From the NCBI RefSeq assembly GCF_003226535.1, contig NZ_QKOB01000003.1:186001-250000 (forward strand): DNA of 64,000 bases, in the 5' to 3' direction. Origin of the DNA: Meiothermus sp. Pnk-1. Its GTDB lineage: Bacteria; Deinococcota; Deinococci; Deinococcales; Thermaceae. The position numbers and the translations under genes were made by a program. Of the stretch, positions 22,443 through 25,405 are shown one piece after another. A model generated the notes under the pieces. It saw only the letters and a program-made list of their open reading frames with translations, was not told the DNA's origin and searched no databases. The stretch's first letter is position 1; every line of letters begins with the position of its first letter.

Positions 22443-23609
22443 TCAGACCCCCAGCTTATCCGCCCGCTGCTTCTCCACCGGCACTCCGGTCACGCCGTGG
22501 AAAGCCTCCACCTCCTCGAGGAAGCGCCGGAAGAGGTAGACCGAGTCGTGCGGGCCGGGGCTGGCCTCGGGGTGGTACTGTACGCTGAAGACCGGGTAGC
22601 GCAGGTGGGCCATGCCCTCGAGGGTGCCATCGTTGAGGTTGATGTGGGTGGGGCGGAACTCACGCAACGAGTCGATGTCCACCGCGTAGCCGTGGTTCTG
22701 GCTGGTGATCTCGACCTTGCCGGTGAGCAGGTTCTTGACCGGGTGGTTAGCCCCCCGGTGGCCGAACTTCATCTTGAAGGTGCGCCCCCCCGCGGCCAGG
22801 GCCAGCATCTGGTGGCCCAGGCAAATCCCAAAGGTAGGCAAGAGGCCCATCAGCTTCCAGAGGGTGTCGTGGGCGTAGCGGGGCATGGAGGGATCGCCGG
22901 GTCCGTTGGAGACAAAAAGGCCCTGGGGCTCGAGGGCCATGATCTGCGCCGGGGTGGTCTTACCCGGCACTACGATGGGCTCAAAGCCGAGTTCGGCCAT
23001 GTACTTGACCTGGGAGAGCTTGATGCCGAAGTCCATCACCACGATGCGCCGCCCGGTCTTGAGGGTGGGGTAGGCGTAGGGCAGCGGGGTGGAGACCTCG
23101 GGGGTCATGTCGCGCCCATCGATATCGGTCCAGGAGCGAGCTTCGGCCTGCAGGGCCTTGAAGTCCGCCTCGCTGAAGCGGTAGCCCTCCCCCCCCAGCG
23201 CTGAGGCGTGGGCGATCACCCCTTTGAGCACCCCACCCTCGCGGATCTTGCGCACCAGGGCGCGGGTATCGATGCCCTCGAGCCCGACTACCCCGTAGAA
23301 CTCCATAAACTCAGCCAGGCTCTGCTGCGCCCGGGGGCCCGCTGCGTAGGGGCTGAACTCTTTGGCCACGAAACCCCGCACCCAGGGGCGGTTTGATTCC
23401 ATGTCGAAGACGTTGACCCCGTAGTTGCCCTGATGAGGATAGGTCATCACCACGATCTGCCCGTTGTAGCTGGGGTCGGTAAGGGTCTCTTGGTAACCGG
23501 TCTGGGCGGTGTTGAACACCACCTCCCCCACCGCCTTACCCCGGTGCCCGAAAGCGTAACCGTGGTAGACGGTGCCGTCTTCTAAGACCAAAACTGCGCG
23601 CTCTTTCAT
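22443..23609 (-). CDS. carA: Carbamoyl-phosphate synthase small chain
   Basis: Glutamine amidotransferase subunit that feeds ammonia to CarB for carbamoyl phosphate, shared by arginine and pyrimidine synthesis. The N-terminal CarA domain begins [16 protein letters not shown]; the class I amidotransferase domain has the nucleophile in [15 protein letters not shown] and the His-Glu in [14 protein letters not shown] 23609 (388 aa) is chosen over ATGs 4 and 8 codons upstream because VLEDGT normally follows within a few residues. TAATAT (plus 23620-23625) lies 10 nt upstream. carB is not in the window. It is last in the arginine gene run. Confidence 0.94.
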
Positions 23610-23671
23610 CCCAAACCCCATATTATGCGACATGTTTGCATTTCTATTCGCGTGGCCTGATCCCGCAGCGA

Positions 23672-23700
23672 CCGCCGAGCGGCCAATCCCGGCTCGGCGG
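23672..23700 (-). other. Stem-loop between the HicB-nuclease gene and carA
   Basis: CCGCCGAGC (23672-23680) and GCTCGGCGG (23692-23700) form a perfect 9-bp stem with an 11-nt loop, 5 nt after the stop of the nuclease-fusion gene. There is no U tract on the transcribed strand, so it may be a Rho-assisted end or a processing stem that separates carA expression from the genes upstream. Confidence 0.5.
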
Positions 23701-23705
23701 GCCGC

Positions 23706-24824
23706 TCAAAGCAGCAGTTTCTCGGCCTCGCCCTCCAGGGTACGCTCGTTGACGAAGGTAAAGCCCCACTGGTGGTGCAGCTCATCCAAAACCGCCTCGG
23801 GAATGCCCAGTAGCACGTACATCACCTGCTTGGCCGGGATGCGCAGGTCCTGGGCGATGCGCTGGTGGCGCTCGAGGGCCTCGTCGTAGCCACCGGTCTT
23901 GCATTCCACCAGCAGGAAACGGTTCGGGGTGCGCACCAGCAGATCCACCTCGAAGCGGTCTCCATTGGGGTAGATGAGGCTGGGGTTGGCCAGCAGATCG
24001 TGGGGGATGTTGCGCCGCCTGAGGGAAAGCTGGATGACCTGTTTGGCGTAGCGCTCGAGCCAGCCTCCGGTGACGAAACCCTGCACCCTCCCTTCCATGC
24101 TGAGCCGCCCATAGATGCGCCGCTGCTTGGAGCTATAGGTATAACTCTTGAGCAACCCCGCCTCCTTGAGCAGGGTGCAGAGCTGGGTTACCGTCCCGAT
24201 ATCGTTCTGGCTGGCCGAGGCCAAGGAGTACTGAAACTCACCGCTGCCCTTGGCCGCGGCCGACTTGATCTTCTCGTAGAAGCCGCTAACCGCGGCAAAG
24301 CGTTCGCCGATAAATCCGCTGATGCGCTCGAGGGCCTTTTCTTCTGCTTCGCTGTTCCCGTTGCGGCTGAGCTGGAGCTGTAGCCCAAGCTCGTTGACAT
24401 ACTCAGAGACTCGGGTGGAAGGGCGTTTGGGCTCTTGTCGGGGCGGCTGGGGTTGAGCGGGAGCGCGGTCTGCCCCTTCTGCGCGCCCCCCTCGCCGCAG
24501 GGCGCGTACCTCCTCGAGGATGCTCCTGACGGTCTTCAAGATGACCTGCTCGGTGGGGTTGGTGCTGGGATGGGTGGTGAGGGCGAGCTCTTGCAAAGCG
24601 GCCCCGGCAGGACCCAGCTCGGGTACGGCTTGGTGCGAAAGCAAGCTCTTGGCCAGCCACAGCTCGAGCTCTTCGCTCAGCCGCTCGCGGCACTCCTCAA
24701 ACGAGCGGCCCCGCACCAGCAGACCGCTGATTTCGGGAACGGTACCCTCGAGGTAGCCCCCCTCGCCAGGACGGTACTGAGCAGACTTGAGGGCCAAGGC
24801 CAGGTAATCGGTAAGCAAACCCAT
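23706..24824 (-). CDS. HicB-like domain fused to a PD-(D/E)XK (Card1/DUF1887-type) nuclease domain
   Basis: 372 residues that I cannot assign to a named family. Residues about 10-65 (GYLEGTVPEISGLLVRGRS, then EECRERLSEELELWLA) match the HicB antitoxin-type RNase-H-like fold. A Pro/Arg-rich linker (about 115-140) follows, then a helical, possibly winged-helix part (about 140-240). The C-terminus has GGWLERYAKQVI and then FEVDLLV...LLVECKTGG, giving the PD-(D/E)XK catalytic set Glu292, Asp294, Glu307, Lys309, as in DUF1887/Card1 nucleases. The CARF sensor of Card1 is absent. It sits 32 bp after argA and ahead of carA on the same strand. A role as conditional nuclease is inference. Confidence 0.7.
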   Translation of the reverse strand: MGLLTDYLALALKSAQYRPGEGGYLEGTVPEISGLLVRGRSFEECRERLSEELELWLAKSLLSHQAVPELGPAGAALQELALTTHPSTNPTEQVILKTVRSILEEVRALRRGGRAEGADRAPAQPQPPRQEPKRPSTRVSEYVNELGLQLQLSRNGNSEAEEKALERISGFIGERFAAVSGFYEKIKSAAAKGSGEFQYSLASASQNDIGTVTQLCTLLKEAGLLKSYTYSSKQRRIYGRLSMEGRVQGFVTGGWLERYAKQVIQLSLRRRNIPHDLLANPSLIYPNGDRFEVDLLVRTPNRFLLVECKTGGYDEALERHQRIAQDLRIPAKQVMYVLLGIPEAVLDELHHQWGFTFVNERTLEGEAEKLLL

Positions 24825-24856: not shown

Positions 24857-25405
24857 TTAGGGATGCCCCTTCCGGTAAGCCTGCTCCGGGTCGAGCACCT
24901 TGGTCACCCCAATCTCGCGGCAATTGTCGTAGAAAGGACAGCGGTTGCATTCACTCCAGACCTTGGGCGGCAGCTTCTCCCGGGTGGTGACGTGGTAGCC
25001 CAGGCCGGTGAAGAACTTGACCTGCAGCGTCCAGGCGAAGATCTGGGGCAAGCCCAGGTCTTTGGCCTCGCGCTCGGCGGCCAAGGCCAGCCAGCGCCCC
25101 AGGCCCTGCCCCTGGCGCTCGGGGTGGACCGCCAGGCCGCGCACCTCGGCGATATCGTGCCAGAGGATGTGCAGCGCCCCCGAGCCCACGATGTGCCCGT
25201 CCTCGTCCTCGAGCACGAAGAAGTCGCGCAGGTTCTCGTAGAGGTGGTCGTGGCTGCGCACGAGCATCAGGCCGCGCTCGGCCCAGTACTTGATGAGGGT
25301 GTAGATCGGCTCGACGTCCTTCATCCTGGCCTTGCGCAGTTCGACATTGGCATCCCAGCGCACCACTGGGAGCCGGGTGGTTCCCACTTCGATCAGGGTG
25401 CTCAT
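24857..25405 (-). CDS. argA: Amino-acid N-acetyltransferase, short GNAT type (N-acetylglutamate synthase)
   Basis: Catalyses the first step of arginine synthesis, acetylation of glutamate. It is the short stand-alone GNAT form of 182 residues without the kinase-like domain. The acetyl-CoA loop reads VHPERQGQGLGRWL. The block LMLVRSHDHLYENLRDFFVLEDEDGHIVG is typical of short ArgA. The C-terminus has CNRCPFYDNC, a possible extra metal site. ATG 25405 has GGAGG seven nt upstream. It lies 13 bp after argH in the arginine operon, which supports the assignment. Confidence 0.86.
   Translation of the reverse strand: MSTLIEVGTTRLPVVRWDANVELRKARMKDVEPIYTLIKYWAERGLMLVRSHDHLYENLRDFFVLEDEDGHIVGSGALHILWHDIAEVRGLAVHPERQGQGLGRWLALAAEREAKDLGLPQIFAWTLQVKFFTGLGYHVTTREKLPPKVWSECNRCPFYDNCREIGVTKVLDPEQAYRKGHP

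Follow-up and report, generated by a model that had tools for sequence, protein, structure and literature searches.

Results

Organization of the argA–carA locus

The gene studied here lies in a 64-kb window (the whole stretch of DNA that was analysed) and codes for a protein in which a HicB/UPF0150 domain, a winged helix and a PD-(D/E)XK nuclease follow one another (Table 1). The original prediction placed it between argA and carA, and profile matches of both neighbours confirmed this arrangement. The fusion gene occurs in a single copy in its own genome, and comparison of Thermus pairs indicated that the linker region is its fastest-evolving stretch.

Two putative signals were recognized between the fusion gene and carA. 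The hairpin past the stop codon has a minimum free energy of −36.2 kcal/mol (73 nt, z −2.05), and 8 of 200 shuffled sequences were equally good. The second is the AT-rich sequence AATAGAAATGCAAA, kin of which precede carA in several Meiothermus-type genomes. This sequence has one match in the window vs 0.47 expected by chance, and the genome encodes an ArgR gene.

Table 1. Features of the fusion gene and its surroundings, with positions in the window.
Feature	Position	Strand	Basis or remark
HicB–winged helix–PD-(D/E)XK nuclease gene	23706..24824	(-)	ORF with ATG start, 372 aa, stop-free
HicB/UPF0150 domain, residues 1–75	24600..24824	(-)	PF21748 above cut-off; model matches 2dsy
Helices 71–83 and 90–110, then disordered linker	24420..24599	(-)	pLDDT below 50 at 113–131
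Helical and winged-helix domain, residues ~136–247	24084..24419	(-)	H-E-H-E-E in the model; Foldseek and PADLOC matches reach through
Card1/Can2-type PD-(D/E)XK nuclease, residues ~247–372 (E257, E292, D294, E307, K309)	23709..24083	(-)	Profiles, alignment, Foldseek
argA-like GNAT acetyltransferase gene, upstream neighbour	24857..25405	(-)	Also matches the argH-fused form PRK12308
carA, downstream neighbour	22443..23621	(-)	PF00988 and PF00117
GC-rich hairpin past the fusion stop codon, before carA; possible terminator	23667..23706	(-)	No T run
AT-rich element AATAGAAATGCAAA, just 5′ of carA; candidate ArgR operator	23635..23648	(-)	Related sequence elsewhere

The N-terminal domain has a HicB fold

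A HicB antitoxin-type N-terminus had been proposed by eye, and both profile and structural comparisons bear it out. The Pfam model UPF0150 (PF21748) matched residues 6–68 with an E-value of 7.9e-11 and 42.2 bits, the cut-off being 27.3. In the AlphaFold2 model the HicB fold is present, and Foldseek aligned 74 residues of it with the HicB protein TTHA0281 of Thermus thermophilus (2dsy) at a target-normalised TM score of 0.83–0.87 and an rmsd of 1.5–1.6 Å. The two HicB domains are 34% identical. TTHA0281, at 87 aa, is however a stand-alone protein of antitoxin type, whereas HicB in the fusion lacks a HicA partner and is joined to a nuclease.

The same Pfam model is still found in 16 of the 42 aligned proteins. 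In a second structural model, made for a Thermus orthologue, the HicB part retains the order H-E-E-E-H. Its 50 listed Foldseek hits do not include 2dsy, which suggests that the fold has drifted in this orthologue.

A Card1/Can2-type nuclease without CARF

The single-sequence Pfam search gave Card1_endonuc (PF09002) 17 bits, under the cut-off of 26.4, and NCBIfam and curated libraries had no name for the fusion. Membership of the NERD nucleases (PF08378) was rejected at 20.4 bits, under the cut-off of 22.1. The CARF-PDDEXK/Csx1 profiles of PADLOC matched residues 137–324 (6e-10). A profile built from 42 homologues, which span Cyanobacteria, Chloroflexi, Firmicutes, Bacteroidota and one archaeon, retrieved from the PDB the chains of Cdn1, Card1, Can2 and VC1899 at 5e-6 to 6e-5, in line with the Card1-type nuclease originally predicted.

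The AlphaFold2 run with the same alignment reached a mean pLDDT of 90, with low values only at residues 113–131. Its pTM of 0.64 means that the domains are well modelled individually while their relative placement is uncertain. Foldseek comparison of the winged helix and nuclease retrieved VC1899 (E 1.5e-11), Cdn1, Can2 and Card1, and a PD-(D/E)XK core is present in the predicted structure. The VC1899 match extends over 251 columns and includes the winged-helix-like domain before the nuclease. With the model of the Thermus orthologue, Cdn1, VC1899 and Can2 were matched again. The region between HicB and the nuclease had been described as a helical middle; the helices are there, but it is in fact a linker followed by a winged-helix domain, as found before the nuclease in VC1899 and Can2.

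The residues named in advance as catalytic, Glu292, Asp294, Glu307 and Lys309, are invariant in 42 out of 42 homologues, and so is Glu257, which lies in the predicted GGWLERY segment. The CARF sensor had been reported missing, and no CARF domain was matched by Pfam, in the model or by Foldseek; residues 1–135 consist of HicB and the linker. The by-eye reading of the domains (a Card1-type nuclease with HicB and without CARF) held for all the structural points tested.

Thus, the fusion shares with its top structural matches, VC1899 (1xmx), Can2, Card1 and Cdn1 (DUF1887/PF09002), the pre-nuclease domain, the PD-(D/E)XK fold and the catalytic set. It differs from them in carrying HicB where they carry CARF, and in having no positive link to Cas10 (see below).

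Distribution and selection of the fusion

A search of 111 genomes from the phylum located the full fusion in Thermaceae and in one further family, f4. All 27 Thermus (g5) genomes carry it, as do many Meiothermus and Calidithermus genomes. About half of the Meiothermus (g4) genomes do without it, which indicates that it is non-essential there.

In the Thermus loci that we read, the gene is flanked by a LytR/Cps-like gene (assigned by eye) and by murJ, the start of which it overlaps, and its inheritance in this genus is vertical and position-stable. In Meiothermus and Calidithermus carriers it is found between the argA-like gene and carA. None of the neighbours (argH, argA, carA or murJ) points to a function.

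Purifying selection on the fusion is strong. Comparison of the window gene with its nearest relative (genome G001, 94% identical protein) gave a dN/dS of 0.058 (0.023 for HicB and 0.052 for the nuclease), similar to the 0.063 of carA, which served as a yardstick.

In the HicB tree, the fused HicBs all fall on one side of a branch with a support of 96/94, and the fusion is likely of one ancient origin, as read from a tree of a short domain in which long branches meet and the join of two fused groups is weak (63/59). A tree with a clade of fused and stand-alone Meiothermus HicBs was not rejected (p-AU 0.41). Recurrent fusion at the argA–carA slot is disfavoured by the HicB tree, which favours one event. 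Mobile or phage origin was rejected as well: the plasmid, phage and viral-contig (IMG/VR) collections searched contained no relatives, and PHROGs gave no match.

The argA–carA gap is a variable insertion slot

Reading the loci genome by genome revealed that the gap between argA and carA is a variable insertion slot. In the carriers among Meiothermus and Calidithermus it is occupied by the fusion. In about a dozen genomes that are Thermus or Thermus-like, it contains a stand-alone HicB (an orthologue of TTHA0281) followed by HicA (PF07927), intact or decaying. In the remaining genomes, including the f4 and f2 outgroups, carA follows argA with nothing between them. A nuclease had been considered unexpected at this place. 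The location is correct, but the surprise is diminished, as the gap is an insertion slot which in some Thermus genomes holds HicB and HicA.

In the Thermus slots L159, L160, L166, L169 and L151, hicBA is intact, frameshifted or fragmentary, that is, a toxin–antitoxin pair is decaying within an arginine operon. Insertion of a toxin–antitoxin module into a Thermus biosynthetic operon has a precedent in the lysine operon (PMC2701414).

TTHA0281 orthologues are thus paired with HicA inside the very slot that the fusion holds in Meiothermus-type genomes, and it is attractive to suppose that the fusion entered by recombination with a resident hicB. The empty Meiothermus slots contain no relics of the fusion, their sole match being carA-proximal regulatory DNA. 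In Meiothermus rufus (G021, L035:5351-6801), argA and the fusion are about 1.4 kb apart, and the DNA between them contains two unrelated open frames.

No hicA was found beside the fusion in the window or in the other fusion loci read, with the exception of genome G019 (L033:6160-6360 and L057:3931-4170). Here a HicA-like frame, 61% identical and without an ATG, GTG or TTG start, lies just upstream of a relocated fusion, and a decayed hicB remains beside argA. A slot-type HicA was not found in the genome of the window, whose only HicA is encoded in a different HicAB locus, on contig 6. No fusion has kept the YYGE/GVWATG signature that marks the stand-alone HicBs of Deinococcota; the fused HicB of Meiothermus retains part of the motif (P-x-hydrophobic-x-G). 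What the fusion has in common with HicAB/HicBA toxin–antitoxin systems is the HicB fold; it differs from them in lacking an adjacent HicA and in having a PD-(D/E)XK nuclease in cis as the effector.

Relatives without HicB

Outside Thermales, the winged helix–nuclease unit is fused to other N-terminal modules: a short helix (LLERIAxALERIA-like), a hydrophobic, membrane-type helix in the case of Cyanobacteria, or a long extension in that of Fretibacterium. These CARF-less relatives share with the fusion the plan from residue ~135 onward and the catalytic residues, and differ from it in having such N-termini in place of HicB. In Fretibacterium (L099, L101 and L108) the extension amounts to about 350 residues, and a MarR-type winged helix was matched within it in L099.

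A survey of homologues for conserved neighbours had been proposed. It showed shared contexts (slot or murJ) within Thermaceae, but the genes of distant relatives mostly stand alone, without known defence genes adjoining them. CRISPR genes occur within two genes of only 2 of the ~32 distant loci: in Methanobrevibacter the relative adjoins two Csm6-type genes (L100:6910-9485), and in a Thiomargarita MAG it adjoins cas1. One locus of the ~32 has an adjoining DNA methyltransferase.

Some Meiothermus genomes carry a second, HicB-less copy (L085, L190-L193). Their identity of 70–73% to the copy of a gammaproteobacterial MAG suggests that they were transferred horizontally.

Cas10 and the fusion

Among Thermaceae, a strong Cas10 match was found in 26 of 39 genomes with the fusion vs 10 of 11 without it (Fisher p 0.15). 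A positive association between the fusion and Cas10 is thus absent among the genomes searched, and the candidate role of a type III CRISPR effector was rejected on these grounds.

Discussion

In Can2 and Card1, the CARF domain is both the sensor and the dimer platform, and the nucleases are CARF-gated effectors. We consider it about 50% probable that the fusion is a chromosomal, metal-dependent PD-(D/E)XK nuclease which keeps the body plan of VC1899, Can2 and Card1 and in which the HicB/UPF0150 domain has replaced CARF as a platform for oligomerisation and regulation. The HicB domains would hold together a homo-oligomer, and this assembly would bring two nuclease domains face to face, the arrangement seen in Can2 (PMC7969007). 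HicB proteins form dimers and tetramers, and YpHicB3 joins its dimers through N-terminal domains (PMC11594946). The winged helix may touch nucleic acid. Assembly or a protein partner, rather than cyclic oligoadenylate, would control activity; nothing suggests dependence on the nucleotide. In Can2 the equivalent of the E-x-D motif is formed by Glu276 and Asp278, and VC1899 has only weak RNase activity in vitro (PMC7969007).

The HicB of the fusion would be related to the HicB of HicBA modules and no longer be paired with a HicA toxin. Since the CARF-less relatives carry varied N-terminal modules, an exchangeable role in assembly or localisation is favoured over HicA sensing. The loss of the YYGE/GVWATG signature, together with the absence of a slot-type HicA from the genome, likewise makes sensing of HicA by the fused domain less likely than a structural role. 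As to function, the protein is most likely a core nuclease of Thermales that serves nucleic-acid turnover or repair; RNA/DNA turnover was among the roles originally suggested and is possible.

An unlikely alternative is that HicB restrains the nuclease in cis until binding of HicA or a phage protein frees it, leading to suicide or dormancy as in CapRel. HicB is a toxin-binding fold, the slot holds hicB–hicA in some Thermus, a HicA-like frame precedes the fusion in G019, and the Meiothermus fused HicB has kept a partial motif. However, the G019 frame has no start codon, the full signature is gone from all fusions, and the only HicA of the genome sits in its own HicAB locus. Additionally, toxin–antitoxin genes lack the core status and stability that this gene has in Thermus.

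We regard as quite improbable a defence nuclease of the abortive type, fired by a phage signal through the HicB domain. Sporadic occurrence of CARF-less relatives across phyla and patchy absence among Meiothermus would fit such a role. On the other hand, the gene is present at a cell-wall locus in all Thermus genomes searched, its dN/dS resembles that of carA, no plasmid, phage or viral-contig matches were found, and distant relatives mostly lack adjoining known defence genes. The self-regulated or ligand-gated defence enzyme of the original prediction finds no support in these observations on a stable chromosomal gene, nor in the missing positive link to Cas10.

It is also rather doubtful that the antitoxin domain has been turned into a sensor, so that a HicB-binding protein (HicA toxin or phage factor) takes the place of a cyclic nucleotide in switching a CRISPR-type nuclease. 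If this were true, toxin–antitoxin and CRISPR-accessory machinery would be joined in one polypeptide.

A type III CRISPR accessory effector which senses cyclic oligoadenylate by a non-CARF route seems highly improbable: the nuclease body is akin to Can2 and Card1, the CARF_PDDEXK profiles of PADLOC match, and the Methanobrevibacter and Thiomargarita relatives lie beside Csm6-type genes and cas1, but CARF is lacking, 13 of 39 carriers have no strong Cas10 match while 10 of 11 non-carriers have one, and such neighbours are confined to those two distant loci. Equally remote is a regulator of transcription or RNA whose nuclease fold binds without cutting, which the winged helix of the model would suit but which is contradicted by the full active site, invariant in 42 sequences.

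Our literature search, which covered HicB fusions with CARF or nuclease domains and TTHA0281, returned nothing on the fusion. The family keeps the Card1/Can2 body and swaps CARF for HicB or for short or membrane-type helices. This suggests that the winged helix and the nuclease form a unit of general use, with assembly and control depending on the N-terminal partner. In the fusion, nature provides an example of an antitoxin fold which has parted from its toxin and been coupled to a different nuclease. Since Thermus is a model genus of thermophiles and has the HicB form among its core genes, the role of this form is directly testable.
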